A DNA stretch of 64,000 nucleotides from Spirogloea muscicola. Taxonomy: Eukaryota > Streptophyta > Zygnematophyceae > Spirogloeales > Spirogloeaceae. Of this stretch, positions 588 to 47,719 are shown in pieces (position 1 is the first letter of the stretch; every line of letters begins with the position of its first letter). A program made the translations under genes and the position numbers. The DNA is taken from contig WELB01000002.1 of NCBI GenBank assembly GCA_009602725.1, positions 515,523-579,522 on the forward strand, written 5' to 3'. The notes below the pieces were generated by a model, which ran no database searches, was not told the DNA's origin, and worked only from the letters and a program-made list of their open reading frames with translations.

Positions 588-3500
588 TTACCCGGTGGCA
601 CCGGTTGACTTAGGAAACGTCAACCCAGCACCACATGATTCGAGATTCTGGAGCATCTCAACAACGTCAACCATCGTTGGCCTTTGTTTTGGGATATTGG
701 AGCAGCAAAATAGCCCAACTTTCAAGGCGCCCCGTATTTCGTCCACTTTCTGGGGGACGAATGGAGCTAGCGCCATATCAACGCACTCCAATGGCTTCTT
801 GTGATTAAGGCATGATCGCACCCACAAAATTAAGGTGCCACCAGCTGCAACCTCGGTCTGAAAGAAAGGGTCAACAGGCCGTTTGCCAGTGACAGTCTCC
901 AGCAGCATCACTCCAAAACTGAAGACATCGCTGTACTCGGTCAGTTGGCCTAGGGCGCAGTCTGGAGCGAGATAACCGATTGTGCCTGCCCATGTGCATC
1001 ACCATGACGTCATGAGTTGCAGGAAAGATGACCCATGATCATTGCGCGGCAGTCTGAGGTGCCTCTACCAGCATCTACCAACACATCCTTCTTGCACGGT
1101 GCCAGAGAGGCCTACGATACAGCTCAGCAGACATTGAAAGGCAGTAAAAGCTACCTGCAGCCATGGTTGAAACGTGCGTTTCATGTGCCTGAAAGATTCG
1201 TGCAAGCCCAAAATCGGCCACGTAACCTTGACCATGTTCATCCAACAAGGTGTTGTTTGGCTTGACGTCCCTATGCAGCACACGAGGACTGCACTCATGA
1301 TGCAGGTACTTAAGCCCAACTGCTGCATCCAATATGACCTTCATCCGTGCAGCCCAGTGATCAAACGCGTCTGGCTTTGGAGGCACGCCCTTGCCCCCGT
1401 GCATCAACTGGTCAAGATGTCCGCCAAGCAAGAAAGGGTAGATGAGGAGCATGCCCGCTTGGCTGTCCCTGGGGATGTACCAGCCCTGTAGAGGGACCAA
1501 ATTGCGGTGTCTGATGCGACTCAGTGTCTCCACCTCAGCTTCCACCGATCGCAATCCTTGCTTGCTGTCTCCTGCTAGCCTCTTCACTGCATACTTTTGG
1601 CCATTCTTCATCTGCGCACTGCTCAGCATATCCATACAAATGATGTATAGATTTGTTTGAGGCCATATTTTAGGGAGAGGCCTGGACAAGCAACACCAAG
1701 AAAAACACACCACTTGCAAGTGGGGAATCCACTTACCCGTAGACTTTTCCGAAGCCCCCGAAGCCAACTATCAACTTTTCATTGAAGTTCTCAGTTGCAT
1801 CCATAAGCTCCTCCAAGGTGAAGGGAGCTTGTAATATATCCTGCGTGATGGACATCTCGGAGCAGAAGTGCTCAAAGGTCCGCTTGTCTGGCATAGTCCT
1901 GTCGTTCTTCTTCTTCCAAGCTAAGCAGCACAGCAGGAGAAGTCCCAGCAACAGGAGGAGAAGGACAACAGCCCCAACAACAATGCCAGCAATTGCCGCC
2001 CCCGATAAGCTCGACGATTTGTGCTCTGGAGGTGGTGGGAAAGGCGGAAGAGAACGAGGTGGGGGAGCTATCTTGCAGGCCAAATAAGGGCCGCCACATA
2101 AGGCGGCATTGCCAGAAAAGGAGCTGCTGTTGAAATGACCAATAAGACCGTCTGGAATAGGCCCACTGAGGTTGTTGTTGGAGATGTTAAAGAAGATGAG
2201 GCGACCCAGATTTGCAAAAGACGCCGGGATGCTGCCGTTGAGCTTGTTGTCAGAAAGGTCGAGACTGATCAGATCCGGCAGACTGCCAATGTCAACAGGT
2301 ATGGGCCCGCTGAATAAGTTGCTTGCAGCCGAAAATGTGAAGAGGTAGAATAAATTTCCAATCTCCAGGGGGAGACTGCCTGTTAGGCGGTTGCTGGAGA
2401 TGTCTAGGTTTTGAGCAATTTGCAGACCCCCAATGCTCGCAGGTACACCTCCGGTCAAATTGTTGTGATCTAGGTGAACACTCAATGCACTGCTTAGGTT
2501 GCCTAGCCACGCTGGAAATGGGCCAGATAATTTGTTATTGTCCATCTTCAGCACTTGCAATTTCTCCAGATTGGAAAAGTTTGTCGGAATCGGTCCAGAG
2601 AAGTTGTTGCCAGCAAGCCAGAGCTCCTTGAGCAGCACAAGTTTCCCCAACTGAGGCGGCACAAGGCCACTTACCCTGCCAGTTGGAAGTGAGCCGCTAA
2701 GATTGTCAGCTGTGGCTCCTGCAATTTATGTATCTGCTGACACGGCAAATCAGGTAAACTATGGCTGCATCAAAGACGCAGTCACCAGTGAGCTCCTGTC
2801 AAGGTCCTGACAGCTACTGTTGCATGAGATATCCAAACAGTATAGCAGAGATGTATGGCTGACACTTGGCAGAGGGCAGCTTCGAGCCTACTGATTGTTG
2901 CTGACAGAAAGATAGCTGAGACTGGTGCAGTTCCCCAGCTCAGATGGTAAGATACCAGTGAGGCTGCAATGCAAGAAAGAGCAAAGCTCACATACAAAGT
3001 CGCCAGCAATTGGGTTTTCCCTTACACAAATTGCAGTCAGCTCCTTCAAGGTCCAGGCAGCTACTGTTGCATGAGATATCTAAACAGTATAGCAGAGATA
3101 TACGGCTGACACTTGGCAGAGGGTAGCTTCAAGCCTACTGGTTGTTGTTGACTGAAAAAAAGCTGAGACTGGTGCAGTTCCCCAGCTCAGACGGTAAAAA
3201 ACCAGTGAGGCTGCAATGCAAGGAAGAGCAAAGCTCACATGCCAGCATTTGGGCTTTCCCTAAACACATATTTCAGTCAGTTTTTTTCATGGTCCGGGCA
3301 GCTACTGTTGCATGAGATATTCAAACAGTACAGCAGTGATAAGTGGCTGACACCCGGCAGAGGGCAGCTTCGAGCCTACTGGTTGTTGTCGACAGAAAGA
3401 AGATTAAGTCTGGTGCAGTTCCCCAGCTCGGATGGCAGAATACCAGTGAGGCTGCAAGGCAAGGAAGAGCAAAGCTCACACACAAGATTGCCAGCATTTG

Positions 3501-6500
3501 GGCTTTCATTCAACACAAACTGCATTCAGCTCCATTCAAGGTCCGGGCAGCTACTGTTGCCCGGACCTTTAGAAAGGTCCGGGCAACAGTGTAGCAGAGA
3601 TATATGACTGACACTTGGCAGAGGGCAGCTTCGAGCCTACTGGTTGTTGTTGACAGAAAGAAAGCTGAGACTGGTGCAGTTCCCCAGCTCAGACGGTAGA
3701 ATACCAGTGAGGCTGTAATGCAAGAAAGAGCAAAGCTCACATACAAAGTTGCCAGCATTTGGGCTTTTCCTACATACAAATTGCAGTCAGCTCCTTTCAA
3801 GGTCCGGGCAAGCTACTGTTGCATGAGATATCCAAACAGTATAGCAGAAGTATATGGCTGACACTTGGCAGAGGGCAGTTTCGAGCCTACTGGTTGTTGT
3901 CGACAGAAAGCACGCTGAGACTGGTGCAGTTCCCCAGCTCAGACGGTAGAATACCAGTGAGGCTGCAATGCAAGGCAGAGTGAAGCTCACATACAAAGTC
4001 GCCAGCATTTGGCTTTTACTTAACACAAATTGCAGTCAGCTCCTTTCAAGGTCCGGGCAGCAACTGTTGCAGGAGATATCTAAACAGTATAGCAGAGATA
4101 TGTGGCTGACACTTGGCAGAGGGCAGCTTCGAGCCTACTGGTTGTTGTCGACAGAAAGAACAAAAGACTGGTGCAGTTCCCCAGCTCAGGCGGCAAAATA
4201 CCGGTGAGGCTGCACTGCAAGGAAGAGCAAAGTTCACATAAAAATTTGCCATCATTTGGGCTTTCACTCAACACAAATTGCAGTCAGCTCTTTTCAAGGT
4301 CCGGGCAGCTACTGTCACATAAGATATCTAAACAGCATAGCAGAGACATACGGCTGACACATGGCAGAGGGCAGCTTCGAGCCTACTGATTGTTGTTGAC
4401 AGAAAGAATTCTAAGACTGGTGCAGTACCCCAGCTCAGGCGGTAAAATACCGGTGAGGCTGCAATGCAACGAAGAGCAGAGCTCACATACAAAGTCGCCA
4501 GCATTTGGGCTTTTACCAAGCACAAATTGCAGTCAGCTCCTTTCAAGGTCCTGGCTACTGTTGCATGAGATACCCGAACAGCATAGCAGAGATTTATGGC
4601 TGACACTTGGCACAGGGCAGCTTCGAGCCTACTGGTTGTTGTTGACAGAAAGATAGCTCAGACTGGTGCAGTTCCCCAGCTCAGGCGGCAAAATACCAGT
4701 GAGGCTGCAATGCAAGGAAGAGCCAAGCTCACATACAAGGTCGCCAGCATTTGGGGTTTTTGTAAAGACAAATTGCAGTCAGCTCCTTTCAAGGTCCGGG
4801 CACCTACTGTTGCATGAGGTCTCCAAACATTATAGCAAAGACATATGGCTGACACTTGGCAGAGGGCAGCTTCGAGCCTACTTGTTGTTGTTGACAGAAA
4901 GAAAATGGAGACTGGTACAGTTCCCCAGCTCAGACGGTAGAATACCAGTGATGCTGCAATGCAAGGAAGAGCAAAGCTCATTCTACAAATGTCGCCAGCA
5001 TTTGGGCTTCTACTGAACACAAATTGCAACCAGCTCCTTTCAAGGTACGGGCAGCTACTGTTGCATGAGATATCCAAACAGTATAGCAGAGATGTACGGC
5101 TGACACTTGGCAGAGGGCAGCTTCGAGCCTACTGATTGTTGTCGACAGAAAGAACGCTGAGACTGGTGCAGTTCCCCAGCTCAGACGGTAAATGACCAGT
5201 GAGGCTGCAATGCAAGGCAGAGCAAAGCTCACATACAAAGTCGCCAGCATTTGGGCTTTTACTTAACACAAATGGCAGTCAGCTCCTTTCAAGGTCCGGG
5301 CAGCAAATGTTGCATGAGATATCCAAACAGTATAGCACAGATATGTGGCTGACACTTGGCAGAGGGCAGCTTCGAGCCAAACTGGTTGTTGTCGACAGAA
5401 AGATAGCTGAGACTGGTGCAGTTTCCTAGCTCAGGCGGCAAAATACCAGTGAGGCTGCAATGCAAGGAAGAGCAAAGCTCTCATACAAAGTTGCCAACAT
5501 TTGGGCTCCTACTAAACTGAAAGTTGCAGTCAGCTCCTTTCAAGGTCCGGGCAGCTTCTGTTGCATGAGATGACCAAACAGCATAGCAGAGATGCATGGC
5601 TTGACACTTGGCAGAGGGCAGCTTCGAGCATACTGGTTGTTGCTGACAGTAAGAACGCTGAGACTGGTGGAGTTCCCCAGCGCAGGCGGTAAAATACCAG
5701 TGAGGCTGCATTGCAAGGAAGAGCCAAGCTCACATACGAAGTCGCCAGCATTTGGGCTTCTACTAAACATAAATTGCACTCCACTCCTTTTAGGTCCAGG
5801 CAGCTACTCTTCATGTACTGCTCTATGTAGTGTCCTCAATGATGGTTACTCTGGCATTCAGATGCAACCTCATGAAAAGACAATATCACTTGTCATTGCC
5901 TGTTCTGCCACATACTGATACGTCATAACAGTAGCTGCACAACATAGAAGCAGGACCCTCACGGCTCCACATAGCTGCACATGTCATGGACTTTTGAGGA
6001 AACCTGTTCCTGACTAAGGCCCGATTTCAGCTACATCTCCCAAGCGCTGGCAAATTCCCATTACTGCATGCCAGTGCATGCAGGAGGATGCACAGTAGTA
6101 GTCGCTGACCCTAGTCACTATCAAGAATCCTGCTCAACAGAACATGAAGGTATCTCAACAATAAGCTGTGCATCTGCAAGCCTAAAATGGTTAACCTTTG
6201 GCATGCTGACCTGTTCTCGTCGAGGTAGAGTTCGCGGAGCTGCGGGAGGCTACCCAGCGCCGGAGGGATGGGGCCGGAGAAAGAGTTACCAGACAGATAT
6301 ATGGACGTCAGGCTGCCAATACTAGCAAGCTCCGGTGCCAGCGTGCCTTCCAACTTCAAGTCCTCCAGATTGAGCCCAATCACTCGCCTGCAAATGTGTA
6401 CCAGCGGCCAGCAGCAAAGAGAGCTGAGCTTGATCAGATCTCGAACTCACACTGCACCTCGCAAGGAGCTCGCAACAACGCTGCTGGCTCAGAAGCCCTC

Positions 6501-7138
6501 CACGGAGCTGCCGCTAGTCCTGTGGCTGCAGAGGAGGCGGGCCCTGCAGGCTCACGACCTCGACAACGGCGGGGCCGCTGGGGGTACCAATGCCTGTGCC
6601 CTTGCTTGATACGTCGCGGCGGCCCACTCGGACTAGACCGGGCTCAGGACGAAGCTCTTGCCTGGGGCCGCCTATGTAGTCGCACTCAACGCCATGCCAC
6701 TTGCACGGTGTGACATCGGCGGGGTGCCAGTCGGTGAGAAAGCCACGTGGGTCGTGGGTAGTGCGGGCCTTGAATGCTAGCAGCGCAGCCTTGTCGGAGC
6801 TGCGCGAGAGAGGATGACGGGCAGTCAGCCGGGGGGAGCCACACGGAGGCCCACGCAGCGCGGGCGCCGGAATGCAGCCTCAGCAGGAGCCCGACGGCGA
6901 CGCGGCGGACGAGGAGAGGGCTCGCAGGCGCAATGTACTTCCTTTGGGAGAGCCACTTGGTGCTCTAGGCGCAATGTGCTTCGTTTGGGAGAGCCACTTG
7001 ATGCTCCAGGCGCAATGTGCTTCCTGGCTCAGGAAGAAAGCCGCGGCGCGAAAGGGCTGCTCACTTGAGGTCCCCGGCGGCGGCGGCGGAGCCGAGGCGG
7101 GTGAGCAGCGCGGCGGCGGCGAGCGCTGCGGCTGCCAT
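588..7138 (-). CDS. RLK-A: LRR receptor-like kinase with a 12-unit LRR exon array
   Basis: Plasma-membrane type LRR receptor kinase. Exons on the minus strand: 7138-7065 (signal peptide, MAAAALAAAALLTRLG...), 6799-6662 (N-terminal LRR cap with SDKAALLAFKA and TPCKWHGVEC), 6387-6211 (two LRRs), an array of twelve 72-nt single-LRR exons (5705 down to 2892), 2675-1737 (LRRs, ALCGGPYLACK, proline-rich stretch, poly-Leu transmembrane helix, kinase start with FGGFGKVYG), 1618-1155 and 985-588 (kinase). The kinase keeps YAVKRL, HRDVKPNN and DFGLA, and has APD in place of APE, so it looks like an active RD kinase. The fixed exons alone sum to 2190 nt (729 aa plus stop); twelve LRR exons would give about 1017 aa. 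The array exon at 4139-4209 is 71 nt, so it must be skipped or the gene is broken. The intron after the LRR cap has a GC donor (6661-6660). The ligand is unknown. Confidence 0.85.
2790..5815 (-). repeat. Tandem array of twelve ~250-bp LRR exon+intron units
   Basis: Twelve direct repeats, spaced 241-261 bp. Each contains one LRR exon of the SLTGILPPELGNCTSL type followed by intron. Exons (plus coordinates): 2892-2963, 3139-3210, 3380-3451, 3641-3712, 3891-3962, 4139-4209, 4387-4458, 4633-4704, 4882-4953, 5133-5204, 5383-5454, 5634-5705. Eleven are 72 nt with AG acceptor and GT donor (mostly GTAGGC; GTTTGG in the 5383 unit). All are phase 2 on both sides, so any number can be spliced without shifting frame. 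The 4139 unit lacks one base. RLK-B has a single equivalent unit at 9888-9959. Confidence 0.93.
3554..3589. repeat. Perfect 17-bp inverted repeat inside the array
   Basis: Arm CTGTTGCCCGGACCTTT (3554-3570), two-base loop AG, then its exact reverse complement (3573-3589). It lies in the intron of the longest unit (261 bp) and appears to come from inverted duplication of the GGTCCGGGCA segment found once in the other units. Confidence 0.9.
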
Positions 7139-7789
7139 GCTCGCCACGGCGGGGCCCGCGGGAGGCCCTCCCGGGCGGCGGGGGCGGCGGGCCCGTGCCA
7201 GGGCGGGCTCAAGTCAAGACGGGGCTGGGCTTCTAAGAAGTGGCTCGTCCAAAGTGGGGCAAGGGCTGTAAACGAGAAAGAGGAAGGGCTTGAGGATAGG
7301 GGCACCCAGTGGCCACTTGAGCACCCGGTGGCCACTTGAGGCGCTGTGGGCTTTGATGACGCTGTTGCGCCATCCGGCCCTTCCAGGCCTTGCACATCCC
7401 TTTGCGCCTCAGTGTAGCTTGTCAGATATGCATGTGCTCACTCGGAAATATTAGTGTCCCCCTTAGCCAGCTCATCACCCAGTTTACAGGACATTTGTAA
7501 GGCTAGAATGGCCTCCCTTTCAATCTCATGCGCACCGCGCGCCTTCTCTCTTTGGGCTAGCTGTTCACAGCCCTAGCCCCCTTTGGGATAGCCACTTTCC
7601 ATCCTTCTTACCGGTGGGAAGCGCCTACTTTCTCCCCTACCCACTCCTTGACTTTACTAAGACTCCTGAGGCTCCTCCTCTTTGAGGCTGACACCTCGCG
7701 CGCCGCTATCTGCGCAGCAGCCCCCCGCCTCTGCCGAGCCGCCGAGACGCTGGCTCTGGCACCGCCCACAAGATCCCGCTTGTCTGAGC
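7139..7789. other. 5' half of the spacer between the divergent RLK genes
   Basis: GC-rich sequence just upstream of the RLK-A start (7139-7220) matches, in reverse, the sequence upstream of RLK-B (8440-8501). The rest holds a LINE alpha-like 3' end (about 7240-7300, -), short repeats of the phrase GTGGCCACTTGAG (7310-7340) and a gamma-subfamily LINE end (next entry). No TATA box was recognised. It may carry a shared promoter region, but that is inference. Confidence 0.4.
7395..7570 (+). mobile_element. 5'-truncated LINE (gamma subfamily): ORF end and 3' UTR
   Basis: TCAGATATGCATGTGCTCAC... encodes SDMHVLTRKY and then a stop at about 7452, matching the LINE ORF end. The 3' UTR (TGTCCCCCTTAGCCAGCTCA ... 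CACCGCGCGCCTTCTCTCTT) recurs at 15.42 kb and 63.28 kb (+), and at 14.2, 19.0 and 25.9 kb (-). I call this 3' UTR type gamma. Confidence 0.65.
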
Positions 7790-7875
7790 ATGGCAGCCGC
7801 TTTGGCCGGCGCTGCCGCGGCGCTTGTCGCCTTTGCGCAGCTGGATTGCTTCGCCTCCGCCGCCGGGGACCTTGA
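7790..7875 (+). CDS. Orphan signal-peptide exon, possible alternative first exon of RLK-B
   Basis: ATG at 7790 opens MAAALAGAAAALVAF..., ending ...SAAGDL just before a GTGAGC donor, exactly as the first exons of the other RLK copies do. The 86-nt length leaves phase 2, which fits the RLK-B cap exon at 8794. No cap exon follows before the RLK-B first exon at 8502. It could be an alternative first exon or a leftover from a partial duplication. Confidence 0.55.
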
Positions 7876-7949
7876 GTGAGCAGCCCGTCCTCCTCCGTTC
7901 ACTTCTGGCCACTTCAGTCGCTGTGTGCTCTTAACGATTTTCCGGCCCC

Positions 7950-8200
7950 TTCGTTCTTTCCTTTGTCTGGGCTGGCCTCTCCCTGTGTGTTTTTTTCTTT
8001 CTTTGGCTTTTCGGACATTGTCCATTCTTTCCGGGCTGGCTTTGCTGGCCCCCTTTTCTTATGGGCGAGCACTTTCTCTCCCAGCCACCGCGCTCCCATG
8101 GAAGCATCTTCCTTTCGAACTTCGTTCATCCTGTTATTCGGGCTGGCCGATCACAGCCATCGCCCTCTACAAGGTCTGAAAGGGCCGGGCGGCGCAAGTA
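7950..8200 (+). mobile_element. LINE alpha 3' ends, decayed
   Basis: Two consecutive stretches (about 7950-8075 and 8115-8180) carry the alpha 3' UTR pattern: TTCGG/CCTTTG run, a GGGCTGGC...GGCC-type or CAGCC hairpin, then the GGGCGAGC or gaag-rich end. No ORF end is kept. Confidence 0.5.
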
Positions 8201-8329
8201 GTAAGCTAGTCTTCAAGGAGTCAGCAAGTGGGCGCTCAATAACCTCTAGTCAGCAAGTGCGTCTAAGTCAGATTGTTTACAAAAGAAAGTCAAATAGCGT
8301 AGAGGGCGGGAAAGCGTCAGAGCAAACAG

Positions 8330-8425
8330 CGACTCAGGTGGCCACTGGGTGCTCTCCGAAGCCCCTTCGGGCTTTTGGGCTGGCTGTTCCAGCCCCTATC
8401 CTCAATGGGCGAGCTCTTTCTTCTG
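8330..8425 (+). mobile_element. Solo LINE alpha 3' end
   Basis: Contains the hairpin GGGCTGGCTGTTCCAGCCC followed by CTATCCTCAATGGGCGAGC and TTTCTTCT, a nearly invariant terminal sequence found repeatedly in the window. It lies just upstream of the RLK-B first exon. Confidence 0.65.
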
Positions 8426-8501
8426 GATTATGCGCCCTCTTGGCACGGGCCGCCGCCGCCGCCACCCCGGGAGGGGCTCCCGCGGGCCCGGCGTTGCGAG
8501 C

Positions 8502-11500
8502 ATGGCAGCCGCAGCGCTCGCCGCCGTCGCGCTGCTCACCCGCCTCGGCTCCGCCGCCGGGGACCTCGCGTGAGCAGCCCTTCCGCAACGCGGCTGCTCC
8601 TGAGCCAGGCAGCACATTGCGCCTAGAGCACCAAGTGGCTCTCTCAAAGCATGGCACATTGCGCCTGCGAGAGCCCTCTCCTCGTCCGCCGCGTCGCCGT
8701 CGGGCTCCTGCTGCGGCTGCACTCCAGCGCCCGCGCTGCGTGGGCCTCCGTGTGGCCCCCCCAGCTGACTGCCCGTCGTCCTCTCCCGCGCAGCTCCGAC
8801 CAGGCTGCGCTGCTGGCCTTCAAGGCCGGCATCACCAACGACCCCCATGGCTTCCTCACCAACTGGCACCCCGCCGATCTCACGCCGTGCGACTGGTTCG
8901 GCGTTGCGTGCAACGGCGTAGAAGGCCCCAGGCAAGAGCTTCGTCCCGAGCCCGGCCTAGTCAGAGTGGGCCACCGCAGCATATTAAGCAAAGGGCACAA
9001 GCATTGGTACCCCAGCGGCCCCGCCGTTGTCGGGGTCGTGACCCTGCCGGGCCCGCCTCCTTTGGAGTCACAGGACTAGCAGCAGCTCCGTGGAGGGCTT
9101 CTGAGGCAGCAGCGTTGCTCCTTGCGAGGTGCAGTACGAGTTCAAGATCTGATCAAGCTCAGCTCTCTCTACTGCTGGCCACTGGTACACACTTGCAGGC
9201 GAGTGATTGGGCTTTTTCTGAAAGACGGGCAGTTGAACGGCACACTGGCACCGGAGCTGGCTAATATTGGCAGCCTAAAGTACATATATCTGCTCAACAA
9301 CTCTTTCTCGAGCCCCATCCCTCCGGCGCTGGGTAACCTCCCGCAGCTTGGCGTTCTCGTCCTCGACCAGAACAGGTCAGCATGCCAAAGCTTGACCGTA
9401 TTTGAGGGTTGCATATGCACAGCTTATTGCAGAGATACCTTTCTGCTCTGATGAGCAGAATTCTTGATGGTGATTAGGGTCAGCAACTGCTACTGTGCAT
9501 CCTCCTGTATGCACTGGGCATGCAATGATGGAAATTTGCCAGCGCTTAGGGAGATCTAGCTTGAAATCGGGCTTAGTCAGGAACAGATATCCTCAAAAGT
9601 CCACTAATATATGTGCAGCTATGTTGAGCCATGAGGGTCCTGCTTCGAAATTGTGCAGCTATTGTCATGATGTGTCAGTGTGCGGCAGAACAGGCACTGA
9701 CAAGTGATATTATGTTTCGCAAGGTCGCATCTGATTGTCAGGTTGACCATTATTGAGGAGAGTACTTAGAGCAGTAGATGACGAGATCAAGAGCTGACTG
9801 AACCTTGAAAGGAGCTGATTGCAACTTGTCCTAAGAAAAGCCAAACTGCTGGCGACTATGTGAGCTTTGCTCTTCCTTGCATTGCAGCCTCACGGGTATT
9901 CTACCGTCTGAGCTGGGGAACTGCACCAGTCTCAGCTTCGTTTCTGTCAGCAACAACCGGTAGGCTCGAAACTGCCCTCTGCCTAAGTGTCAAGCTATAT
10001 ATTTCTGCTACAATCATTGAATTTCATGCAACAGCAGCTGCCCGGACCTTGAACGGAGCTACTGCGATTTGTGTTAGTGAAAGCCCCATTGAGCCTGACC
10101 TCCAACTTGTAAGGGCTTGCCTGCAGCCCATGTCAATTGCTTGACCCCTATCAAAAGCTCTTTTTGTTTCAGCTTGGAGGGTGGAGTGCCACCAGAGCTC
10201 GCTGATCGCAGGGGAATGATCAGCCTGGACCTGAGCCACAACAGGTGCTGAGCTGTGACTGCATCTTCAATGCAGCCATGAGTTGCCTGATTTGCCATGT
10301 CAGCACATTACATAAGTTGCAGAGGAGCCACAGCTGGCATCCTTAGCGGCTTACTCGCAATTGTTGGCAGGTTAAGTGGCCACCTGCCACCTGAGTTGGG
10401 GAGACTCGTGCTGCTCACCAAGCTGTGGCTTGCTAGCAATAAATTCTCTGGACCGATCCCAACGACGTTCTCCAATCTGAAAAACCTGCAAGTGCTGACA
10501 ATGGACAATAACAATTTCTCTGGCCCATTCCCACAGTGGCTTGGCAACTTCAGCAGTGCATTGACTATTTCCCTAGGTCACAACAACTTGACCGGAGGAG
10601 TCTCTGCAAGCATTCGCAGTCTGCAAAGCGTTCAGTATCTTGACATCTCCAACAACCGCCTTACAGGCATTCTCCCCCTGGAAATTGGAGAATTAAGCAG
10701 CCTCAAAACATTTTCGGCTGCAAGCAATTCATTCAGCGGGCCAATTCCGGAGGGTATTGGCAACTTGCCGAGTCTTACCTATCTCGATCTTTCCAACAAT
10801 AATCTCAATGGCAGCATTCCGGCAAATCTGGGTTCTATACCTTTCTTTAACATCTCCAATAACAACCTCAGTGGGCCTATTCCAGACATGCTCATTGGTC
10901 ATTACAACAGCAGCTCCTTTTCTGGCAATCCCGCCTTATGTGGCGGCCCTTATGTGGCCTGCAAGACAGGTCCACCACCTCCAGTACACAAATCGTCGAG
11001 CTTATCAGGGGGGGCAACTGCTGGCATTGTTGTTGGGGCTGTTGTTCTTCTCCTCCTATTGCTGGGACTTCTCCTGCTGTGCTGCTTAGCTTGGAAGAAA
11101 AAGAAGGACAAGACTATGCCAGACAAGGAGCGGAGCATTGAGCAATTCTGGTCCGAGATGTCCATCACGCAGGATAGACTCCAAGCTCCCTTTACCTTCG
11201 AGGAGCTCATGGATGCAACTGAGAACCTCAATGATCATTATATTGTTGGCATTGGGGGCTTCGGGAAAATCTACTGGTAAGTAACCTTGCCTACTTGCAA
11301 GGTGGTGTGCTATCCTTGGTGCAAATTGTTCAGGCCTCTTCTTAAAGTACGGTACACACAAACTTACGATCATTTTGATGGAGATGCTGAGCAGCGCGCA
11401 GATGAAGAATGGCCAAAGGTATGCAGTGAAGAGGCTACCAGCAGACAGCAAGCAAGGATTGAGATCGGTGAAAGCTGAGATGGAGACACTGAGTCGCATC

Positions 11501-12463
11501 AGACATCGCAATTTGGTCCAGCTACAGGGCTGGTACATCCCCAGGGACAGCCAAGCTGACATGCTCCTCATCTACCCTTTCTTGCTTGGCGGAAATCTTG
11601 ACCAGTTGGTGCACGGGGGCAAGGGCGTGCCTCCAAAGCCAGACGCATTTGATCACTGGGCTGCACGGATGAAGGTCATATTGGATGCAGCAGTTGGGCT
11701 TAAGTACCTGCATCATGAGTGCAGTCCTCGTGTGCTGCATAGGGACGTCAAGCCAAACAACACCTTGTTGGATGAACATGGTCAAGGTTACGTGGCCGAT
11801 TTTGGGCTTGCACGAATCTTTCAGGCACATGACACGCACGTTTCAACCATGGCTGCAGGTAGCTTTTACTGCCTTTCAATGTCTGCTGAGCTGTATCGTA
11901 GGCCTCTCTGGCACCGTGCAAGAAGGATGTGTTGGTACATGCTGGTAGAGGCACCTCAGACTGCCGCGCAATGATCATGGGTCATCTTTCCTGCAACTCA
12001 TGACGCGTCACGGTGATGCACATGGGCAGGCACAGTCGGGTATCTCGCTCCAGACTGCGCCCTAGGCCAACTGACCGAGTACAGCGATGTCTTCAGTTTT
12101 GGAGTGATGCTGCTGGAGACTGTCACTGGCAAACGGCCTGTTGACCCTTTCTTTCAGACCGAGGTTGCAGCTGGAGGCAGCTTAATCTTGTGGGTGCGAT
12201 CTTGCCTCAATAACAAGAAGCCTTTGGAGTGCGTTGACATGGCGCTAGCTCCATTCTCCCCCCAAAAAGTGGACGAAATACGGGGCGCCTTGAAAGCGGG
12301 GCTATTTTGTTGCTCCAATATCCCAAAGCAAAGGCCAACAATGGTTGACGTTGTTGAGATGCTCAAGAATCTCGGAGCATTTGGTGCTGGGTTGACGTTT
12401 CCTAAGTCATCATTGCCAATAGACGGGACGGCAATGGACAAGCTTTTGTGCCACGGGACTTGA
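8502..12463 (+). CDS. RLK-B: intact LRR receptor-like kinase (776 aa)
   Basis: Eight exons: 8502-8569 (signal peptide), 8794-8931 (N-terminal LRR cap, SDQAALLAFKAG, TPCDWFGVAC), 9199-9375 (two LRRs), 9888-9959 and 10173-10244 (one LRR each), 10371-11276 (remaining LRRs, ALCGGPYVACK, transmembrane helix near residues 392-418, kinase start IVGIGGFGKIYW), 11395-11858 and 12030-12463 (kinase). They sum to 2331 nt with no internal stop. Introns are phase 2 up to the kinase and phase 1 before the last exon. The kinase has YAVKRL, a Glu-containing helix C (VKAEMETLSRI), HRDVKPNN, DFGLA and APD for APE, as expected of an active plant RLK/Pelle RD kinase. The intron after the cap uses a GC donor (8932). 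Introns are very similar to RLK-A, its head-to-head neighbour. The C-terminus (after FPKS) differs from RLK-A. The ligand is unknown. Confidence 0.92.
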
Positions 12464-39735: not shown

Positions 39736-41689
39736 TGGGAGCTAAAGAGCAGGATCACTTCTCTGTCATACTTTTGTCCTTCCGTGCTAAGCAACACAGC
39801 CGGAGCAGTGCCAGCAACAGGAGGAGAAGGACAACAACAGCCCCAACAACAATGCCAGCAGTGCCCCCCCTGATAAGCTCGACGACTTGTGCTCTGGAGG
39901 CGGTGGCGAAGGAGGTGTCTTGCAGGCCACGTAAGGGCCGCCACACAAGTCGCCATTGCCAGAGAAGGAGCTGCTATTGTAGTGACCGATAGAACCGCCA
40001 GGAATGGGCCCACTGAGGTTGTTATTTGAGACGTTGAAGAAGGAAGTAAGGTTCAAATTAGCAAAGGACGCCGGGATGCTGCCATTGAGGTCGTTATTGG
40101 AAAGATCGAGGTATGTAAGACTCGGCAAGTTGCCAATCTGCTCCGGAATGGGCCCGCTGAATGAGTTGCTTGCGGCCGAAAATGCAATGAGCTTGCTTAA
40201 CTCTCCAATTTCCACAGGGAGACTTCCACTTAGGCGGTTGTTGGAGATGTCAAGATCTCGGAGATCTTGCAGACTCCGAATGCTCGCAGGTACTCCTCCG
40301 GTCAAGTTGTTGTGAGCTAGGTAGATACCCAACACATCGCTTAGGTTGCCAAGCCACTCTGGGAATGGGCCAGATAGATTGTTATTTTCCATCCCCAGCA
40401 ATTGCAAGTTCTCCAGGTTGGAGAAGGTTGTCGGGATCGGTCCAGAGAGCTTGTTGTCATCAAGCGAGAGATCGTTGAGCAGCACAAGTCTCCCCAACTG
40501 AGGTGGCACAAGGCCAGTTAACCTGCCAGTAAGTGCAAATGAGCTGCTAAAAATGCCAGCTGTGGCTCTTCTGCACTTTATGTATCTGCTGACATGGCAA
40601 ATCAGGCAACTTATAAAGCAGTCACAGCTCAGCACCTGTTGAAGCTCAGGTCCAGACTGATCAACCCCCTGCAATCAGCGAGCTCTGGTGGCACTCCACC
40701 CTCCAAGCTGACACCAAACACGCATTTGGCAGGCGGTGAATTAACACCAATAGCAGTCAGCTCCCTCATGAAGTGGGAGCTTGTTGCACGAGATGACCTG
40801 CACGTAGGGACAGCAGAGCAGGCCTACATGATCGAAACTTGGGCAAAAGGCATACTGGAGCCTACTGGTTGTGATCGACCCAGAGAGCGCTGAGATTGGT
40901 GCAGATTCCCAACTCCGATGGTAGGGGACCAGAAAAACTGCATCGCAACGAAGAGCTTCGACTACTGTCAACCTTCTCCTTAGCTTCGTGAACGATGACA
41001 ACTTCATCTACCAGACACACTCGCAACTGAGTTGATATTGTCGAGCTCACTGTGTCTCAAGGTAACTCCTTGCAAAGATGCCTTGATGCAATATGCACGG
41101 CAACAGTCTGGTAGGAGAGTCTTGCTGATACTTACTTATTGCTCCCCAAAAGTAACAGTCTCAACATTCGAAGGTTGCCAATGCTTGAAGGTATGACTCC
41201 CGTTAATCTGAACGCAAGACAACCACAGGGCATTGGCATATGTGCCACTTGGTCCATGAATGAAATGCCTTGAAGTTATGATGATGCCTTGATCAGCCTG
41301 ATCAGCCTGATCAGCCTTGATCCTCTTATGTGCACAAATAGCAGTCAGCTCCCTCATGAAGTGGGAGCTTGTTGCACGAGATGACCTGCACGTGGGGACA
41401 GCAGAGCAGGCCTACATGCTCGAAACTTGGGCAAAAGGCATACTGGAGCCTACTGGTTGTCATTGACATAGAGATTGCTGAGACTGGCGCAGCTTCCCAA
41501 CTCCAATGGTAAGGGACCAGTAAGGCTGCATCGCAACGAAGAGCTTCGATTACTGTTCACCTTCTCCTTAGCTTTGTGACCAATGACCACTTCATCAATC
41601 AGACACACTGGCAACTGAGTTGATGTTGTCAAGCTCACTGTGTCGCAAGGACACTACTTGACGGTGTAGCCTCCCTGAGGCAAGGCCGT

Positions 41690-47718: not shown

Positions 47719-47719
47719 N
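47719..47719. other. Unresolved base in a C-rich tract
   Basis: The only N in the window, inside a run of Cs (47698-47720). The length of this tract is uncertain, so reading frames crossing it are too. Confidence 0.95.

Follow-up and report, generated by a model that had tools for sequence, protein, structure and literature searches.

The gene RLK-A of Spirogloea muscicola lies in a 64,000-nucleotide window of contig WELB01000002.1, the whole stretch of DNA analysed here. Its sequence is best read as that of an LRR receptor kinase of plant type, in which a single exon encoding one LRR has, together with its flanking intron, been multiplied to twelve tandem cassettes, with their number changed by recombination. 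We put the probability of this reading at roughly two in three.

TRF, run on the window, detects a 249-bp unit in 12.2 copies at positions 2786–5815 (score 4302), and a repeat search of the RLK-A array finds 12 direct copies at a spacing of 241–261, which agrees with the twelve repeats of about 250 bp in the original prediction. Within each unit lies an LRR exon, encoded on the minus strand and ending in phase 2; an AG acceptor and a GT donor are present in all 12 cassettes. That every repeat is a 72-nt exon of this type, as had been proposed, holds for 11 of them, while cassette 7 measures 71 nt. The 72-nt exons are cassettes 1 to 6 at 5634–5705, 5383–5454 (with the donor context GTTTGG), 5133–5204, 4882–4953, 4633–4704 and 4387–4458, and cassettes 8 to 12 at 3891–3962, 3641–3712, 3380–3451, 3139–3210 and 2892–2963; cassette 7 occupies 4139–4209. 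Consecutive, equal in length save for this one, encoding one LRR each and ending in phase 2, they form a tandem one-LRR exon array. Rfam and tRNA scans of the whole window gave no match.

Around the array, the RLK-A model runs on the minus strand from exon 1 (7065–7138), with a signal peptide predicted by eye, through exon 2 (6662–6799), which has a GC donor and encodes an LRRNT cap (Pfam LRRNT_2 in the RLK-B protein), to exon 3 (6211–6387) with the first LRRs. The post-array exon (1737–2675) comprises LRRs, a transmembrane segment predicted by eye and the start of the kinase, and is followed by a kinase exon (1155–1621; Pkinase match at C2:516672-517136) and a final kinase exon that includes the stop (588–985). 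The reading frame is open all through exons 1–3 and 6–8. The neighbouring RLK-B, on the plus strand at 8502–12463, is an open LRR receptor kinase of 777 aa in eight exons. LRRNT_2, LRR_1, LRR_8 and Pkinase all score above the Pfam cut-off in its protein, and the PDB entries that its ectodomain matches best are GSO1, MDIS1-interacting receptor like kinase 2, FLS2 and PEPR1. RLK-A has counterparts of the LRRNT, LRR and kinase exons of RLK-B; by these predicted products, both genes are plant-type LRR receptor-like kinases. RLK-B does carry a single cassette (9888–9959), as originally predicted, but it is not near-identical to RLK-A: identity is 83–87 % in two long shared parts, and RLK-B has a second 72-nt LRR exon at 10173–10244, a counterpart of which was looked for in RLK-A and not found.

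The array exons look translated, since dN/dS among the RLK-A cassettes is 0.39 (0.21 excluding codons 16, 17 and 21), albeit with a codon-bootstrap range extending to 0.98, and third codon positions diverge at an intron-like level. In the cassettes used, positions 1 and 2 of the codons other than these three have a diversity of 0.065, compared with values of 0.178 for introns and 0.181 for third positions. Indel events in RLK-A number 1 in exons versus 19 in introns, 7 of the latter lying near the alignment end, where gaps are least sure. The absence of stops is by itself uninformative (P 0.32 under neutrality). Across the 11 RLK-A exons that measure 72 nt, codon 16 encodes S, H, R or N, codon 17 encodes Y, F, V, I or L, and codon 21 encodes D, N or S; the scaffold codons are conserved, which bears out the expectation that exon bodies and splice sites are kept while residues on the LRR face vary. 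The case for diversifying selection on that face is no more than suggestive. At the three codons dN/dS reaches 1.12 within RLK-A and is 0.50 when 30 cassettes are taken together; five concave codons chosen from LRR geometry, compared with introns, give P 0.07 over 30 cassettes and P 0.012 in RLK-A; and the comparison of M2a with M1a yields p 0.72 when the unit tree is used and p 0.0009 with a star tree. These selection tests cover 30 of 33 cassettes, RLK-A cassette 7 and both L035 cassettes having been left out.

Cassette 7 lacks a single base, adjoining the variable codons, and neither of its two AG acceptors, the additional one lying 5 nt upstream, preserves the frame. Because of its 71 nt, RLK-A with all 12 cassettes joined reaches a stop after 418 codons. 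Use of the second acceptor was considered as a rescue and rejected, for the exon then measures 76 nt and translation ends after 306 codons. Without cassette 7 the gene encodes a 994-aa LRR receptor kinase that is open through the kinase, and the other 11 cassettes leave the frame open in 2048 of 2048 subsets. The idea that cassette number could change without frame loss thus applies to the 11 intact cassettes in every combination and fails at cassette 7. Unless the missing base is a sequencing error, a working RLK-A receptor would be expected only from transcripts that omit this cassette.

It is possible, though doubtful, that subsets of the cassettes are alternatively spliced, as in brown-algal ROCO genes, a proposal compatible with the best explanation. 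The open frame in every subset of the intact cassettes is in its favour, but any symmetric exon array would permit this, and the sequence itself demands nothing of the kind. In the arthropod receptor Dscam, exons are drawn from tandem clusters of interchangeable units, and a mutually exclusive choice is made through RNA pairing. RLK-A has tandem exons of this interchangeable type too; however, one duplex scan for Dscam-like docking sites, in which the introns flanking the array on either side were paired with the 11 inner ones, returned best mean duplexes within the range of 40 shuffles each (fraction equally strong, 0.225 upstream and 0.85 downstream). On this one scan, docking sites of the Dscam type were rejected. 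An excerpted account of brown-algal ROCO genes mentions the Dscam exon clusters alongside them and describes tandem 72-bp phase-2 LRR exons that yield several splice forms (PMC11378527).

The cassette is present at 13 places at least, a lower bound because the search scores its best candidates only. Copy number varies among these sister genes: one place each has 12, 5, 4, 3 and 2 cassettes, and eight have 1, one of the eight being cut short (C108; left out of all later counts). Loci were compared by BLAST using pieces longer than 350 nt in one comparison and longer than 250 nt in another, weak tblastn pieces also being dropped. The kinase part is absent from the examined stretch at the loci with 5, 4 and 2 cassettes. 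All six other loci grouped with RLK-A carry a lesion, be it stops, frame breaks, lost donors or a kinase part absent from the examined stretch, so that, judging from these sequences, this gene branch may be decaying. Taken with the 71-nt length and second AG of cassette 7, these lesions could mean that RLK-A is itself becoming a pseudogene, with the array a relic, the frame broken by cassette 7 and the full receptor never made. We consider this unlikely, as exons 1–3 and 6–8 are open, dN/dS falls to 0.21 outside the three variable codons, the splice dinucleotides are intact in 12 of 12 cassettes, and the damage is confined to one removable exon.

Less probable still is an assembly or sequencing error in the twelve-unit count or in the 71-nt exon, with cassette 7 as the chief suspect. 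Positions 6108–9107 of the window are 100 % identical to contig C330, after which identity drops to 0.91–0.97; C330 has a single N right before the start of the match, inside RLK-A intron 3, and for the part of RLK-A past the array the matches listed include no second copy above 90 %. The relation between the two contigs thus changes oddly across the array. However, the 12 units diverge from each other by 6–20 %, which makes collapse or false repetition unlikely, and the window has no N other than the one at 47719. C330 was also considered as a haplotype with another array length: it has the 5' part in common, but its match starts just after the N and short of the array, and is therefore uninformative on array length. 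Least credible is a scheme in which splicing of the array would produce many ectodomains from one gene with cassette 7 as the switch, its skipping giving a membrane receptor kinase and its inclusion either a secreted LRR fragment, 418 aa long if all twelve are joined, or a decay-marked transcript.

As for the multiplication of one exon and the later change in copy number, short direct repeats of the unit ends may provide the substrate. They surround the cassette at all 7 of the single-cassette loci that were tested and at none of 3 outgroup cassettes; in RLK-B the upstream and downstream copies lie at 9792–9867 and 10036–10118 on the plus strand. Recombination between such repeats would alter cassette number, although the repeats could be the original seed instead of a trace of contraction. 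Exchange between loci would mix the units. The RLK-A units form no clade, as forcing one lowers lnL by 43.4 (AU p 0.041, near 0.05, for short recombining units, with L035 left out of the tree and the test run after an earlier tree had already shown mixing). The original prediction also foresaw fast variation through unequal crossing-over, which is not seen in RLK-A: units next to each other show no greater similarity than units far apart (lag-1 mean 0.866, permutation P 0.44), and the highest similarity (0.94) is between two units five places apart. Ongoing unequal exchange is therefore not visible at RLK-A, and neighbour-to-neighbour amplification there was rejected for want of any lag structure. 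A hint of a newer neighbour duplication comes from L029 alone, where units 1 and 2 are 93.8 % alike. At L031 and L032 similarity to the window stops about 106 and about 30 nt beyond the last cassette, respectively; no hot spot of rearrangement is claimed for the array, because the loci were found by their cassettes. By these comparisons, the locus would be an old array, grown and shrunk by recombination between repeats, and not one visibly turning over at present. Over evolutionary time, copy-number change and mixing would give receptors of differing length and concave-face composition.

Other receptor families already provide examples of exon arrays of this kind. Brown-algal LRR-ROCO genes are reportedly the subject of work by Zambounis from 2012. 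In an excerpted source, these genes have tandem 72-bp phase-2 exons of one LRR each, exon shuffling and a variable concave face, with splice variants and positive selection reported (PMC11378527). So far as that excerpt goes, RLK-A is alike in its tandem 72-nt phase-2 one-LRR exons, its variable concave-face residues and, on the present reading, exon shuffling, but the brown-algal proteins are ROCO GTPases, set apart also by the reported splice variants and positive selection, whereas RLK-A is a predicted transmembrane receptor kinase. Rice LRR kinases, as partially excerpted, share with RLK-A both the receptor class and the type of exon, which encodes one LRR in 72 nt and ends in phase 2, with exon duplication proposed as the source of LRRs and positive selection given a limited part; one-LRR exons are described there in general, whereas RLK-A unites twelve cassettes with still similar introns in a single gene (PMC3050792). 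The available portion of a report on Tetrahymena describes tandem arrays of 90-bp phase-2 LRR exons with variable copy number in thousands of genes, for which unequal crossing-over and also a retrotransposon were proposed (PMC6564038). Equal-length phase-2 LRR exons in tandem, variable copy number and a proposed role for unequal crossing-over are common to both, but those of the ciliate are 90 bp long and spread over thousands of genes, compared with 72 nt in RLK-A. Among the matches listed in the open-licence literature, judged by titles and the beginnings of abstracts, there was no report of an array like this one from a plant LRR-RLK.

Receptor change by exon gain and loss is discussed in the excerpted texts for brown algae (PMC11378527) and ciliates (PMC6564038). 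Here, an LRR exon array, apparently long used, is found within a receptor kinase of plant type, and the sister loci in the same genome range from 1 to 12 copies. The array and its sister loci would allow changes in receptor length and binding face through exon gain and loss to be tested directly.

The minus-strand receptor kinase gene RLK-A (7138-588) contains a tandem array for which TRF gives a 249-bp unit in 12.2 copies at 2786-5815, and for which a repeat search gives 12 copies at a spacing of 241-261 bp. Every unit holds an LRR exon, which with its splice sites and flanking intron we call a cassette; the exon is preceded by AG, followed by GT, and opens with one base of a codon and closes with two. 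The original prediction held that all twelve exons measure 72 nt and that the array can vary without loss of frame. Both statements hold for eleven of the cassettes, which are 72 nt long and stay in frame in all 2048 of their 2048 possible subsets, but not for cassette 7 (4139-4209), which has 71 nt and breaks the frame. When all twelve cassettes are joined a stop follows after 418 codons, while leaving out cassette 7 gives 994 codons that read through the kinase. A second AG lies 5 nt upstream of the cassette 7 acceptor, and rescue by this site was rejected because the frame is still broken when it is used.

Two features of the array introns deserve mention. In the 261-bp unit, the intron that separates cassettes 9 and 10 includes a perfect inverted repeat with 14-nt arms (3557-3586), which resembles a small insertion made by template switching. 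Directly downstream of each array donor, ~20 nt show a diversity of 0.02-0.05 per 10-nt bin versus ~0.18 for whole introns, and are still recognisable in distant relatives; this stretch is possibly a splicing element.

RLK-A forms a head-to-head pair with RLK-B (plus strand, 8502-12463), which has one cassette at 9888-9959. The open 777-aa translation of RLK-B matches the LRRNT_2, LRR and Pkinase domains, and the PDB entries nearest to its ectodomain are GSO1, MDIS1-interacting receptor like kinase 2, FLS2 and PEPR1; from these domains and neighbours we infer that the gene belongs to the plant-type receptor kinases. In both gene models exon 2 is closed by a GC donor (GCAAGAG), at 6662 in RLK-A and 8931 in RLK-B. 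Between the genes, a ~150-bp piece (7401-7553) occurs at more than 20 places at 88-94% among the matches listed, and is a dispersed repeat near a possible shared promoter.

The array has zero Ns and its units are distinct from each other, and for these reasons we think that it is real; the single missing base of cassette 7 needs confirmation from raw reads. Among the matches listed, there is no near-identical second copy of the part of RLK-A after the array (best 90%; 56 DNA matches, self included). Nearby, 6108-9107 matches contig C330 (from 53003) with 100% identity for 3,000 bp, after which identity falls to 0.91-0.97. Just ahead of the match start, at a point that corresponds to RLK-A intron 3, C330 has a single N. 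A recent copy, gene conversion and assembly duplication are alternative explanations of this identity.

Diversity within the array depends on codon position. The RLK-A values are 0.169 for third and 0.072 for second positions, against 0.13-0.17 for the introns. Across 30 cassettes (the 33 full ones found in the genome, minus cassette 7 and both from the sister locus C134:142k), third positions (0.181) are on a par with introns (0.178), and positions 1 and 2 reach only 0.065 when codons 16, 17 and 21 are excluded. The eleven RLK-A cassettes of 72 nt have a dN/dS of 0.39 (codon bootstrap 0.16-0.98), and the full set of 30 gives 0.36 (0.16-0.63); without these three codons the values are 0.21 and 0.23, respectively. 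RLK-A indel events number 1 in exons versus 19 in introns, 7 of the latter being near the alignment end, where gaps are least sure. The lack of stop codons carries little weight alone (P 0.32 if neutral). Codon-position diversity, dN/dS and indel distribution together argue that the cassettes have generally been translated.

By LRR geometry, codons 16, 17 and 21 lie within the xxLxLxx segment of the repeat. At their first and second positions diversity is 0.41 and exceeds that of introns (P 0.0005), with the codons picked after the data had been seen; for five concave codons chosen from LRR geometry, the same comparison gives P 0.07 with the 30 cassettes and P 0.012 with those of RLK-A. M2a versus M1a yields p 0.72 on the unit tree and p 0.0009 on a star tree, at codon 17, and the three codons have a dN/dS of 1.12 in RLK-A and of 0.50 across the 30 cassettes. 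Diversifying selection at the variable face is possible.

Sister loci were sought with one unit as DNA query against the same genome (153 Mb in 471 contigs; the window is C2 515523-579522), and since only the best candidates were scored, the numbers of matches and of places are lower bounds. There are at least 39 matches to the unit and, as counted in 14 fetched stretches, cassettes at at least 13 places: twelve in RLK-A, five in C365, four in C2:505k, three in C2:468k, two in C134:142k, and one each in RLK-B, C2:493k, C330:51k, C330:57k, C134:93k, C104, C28 and C108, the last cut short. The 33 full exons measure 72 nt in 32 cases and 71 nt in one, with AG in 33/33 and GT in 31/33; GT is lost in both C134:142k cassettes, where the end of the exon was placed from the alignment. 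Ns occur close to C2:505k and C365, outside both arrays.

Five B-type genes (RLK-B, C330:57k, C134:93k, C104, C28) combine one cassette with another 72-nt exon that was not found in RLK-A, C2:468k, C2:493k and C330:51k. C2:505k, C365 and C134:142k, which are cut after the array and allow no judgement on this exon, were put in the RLK-A group on the strength of having the array and orientation in common with it. RLK-B, C330:57k, C104 and C28 appear open exon by exon. Within the RLK-A group, all other exons are open in RLK-A only: the kinase exon of C2:468k is divided over two frames, C2:493k and C330:51k contain stops, and no kinase exon was found in the fetched stretches of C365, C2:505k and C134:142k. 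Remoter relatives of the cassette, with similar acceptor and donor surroundings, occur in other receptor genes in the window and nearby. In one such gene (40745-41632), a related cassette is present twice on a 588-bp unit, 90% alike, and is a separate exon duplication. Pkinase matches are numerous on C2, and related receptor kinases cluster there (about 193 to 609 kb) and on contigs such as C28, C330, C134 and C108.

Neighbouring RLK-A units are no more alike (0.866 at lag 1) than units at other distances (permutation P 0.44), and the two most similar, units 3 and 8 (0.94), are separated by five units' distance. In a 37-row tree rooted on outgroups, with 18 of 34 inner branches weak, the twelve units form no clade; forcing them together lowers lnL by 43.4 (AU p 0.041, in a test that was not blind, as mixing was already visible in an earlier tree). 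RLK-A units 10, 4, 1 and 5 pair with C365 units 1, 2, 3 and 4 (starred support in two of four pairs), so that unit order differs between the two arrays. Within a single RLK-A unit, the upstream part, the exon and the downstream part often have different closest matches, an indication that the units are mosaics. A newer duplication between neighbours is best suggested by C2:468k, whose units 1 and 2 are 93.8% alike.

B-type cassettes cluster together (86/90), and a topology in which every other unit excludes them is not rejected (p 0.41). At all seven single-cassette loci tested (the cut C108 not among them), the unit ends recur as a short direct repeat on both sides of the lone exon, with a score above 200 base shuffles; none of three outgroup cassettes has such repeats. 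They represent either the seed from which the array grew or the remnant of one that was lost. Each reading agrees with copy number changing through recombination between repeats, and neither shows ongoing change in RLK-A.

Comparable exons are described in the available text of three reports: 72-nt, phase 2 exons of one repeat each in rice LRR kinases, with exon duplication proposed (PMC3050792); tandem 72-bp phase-2 exons, together with splice variants and positive selection at concave sites, in brown-algal ROCO genes (PMC11378527); and tandem 90-bp phase-2 exons of variable number in Tetrahymena LRR genes, with unequal crossing-over proposed (PMC6564038). The RLK-A array resembles these as far as that text goes, its host gene being of the plant-type receptor kinase class, and RLK-A thus adds a plant-type receptor kinase case to the LRR exon arrays already known.
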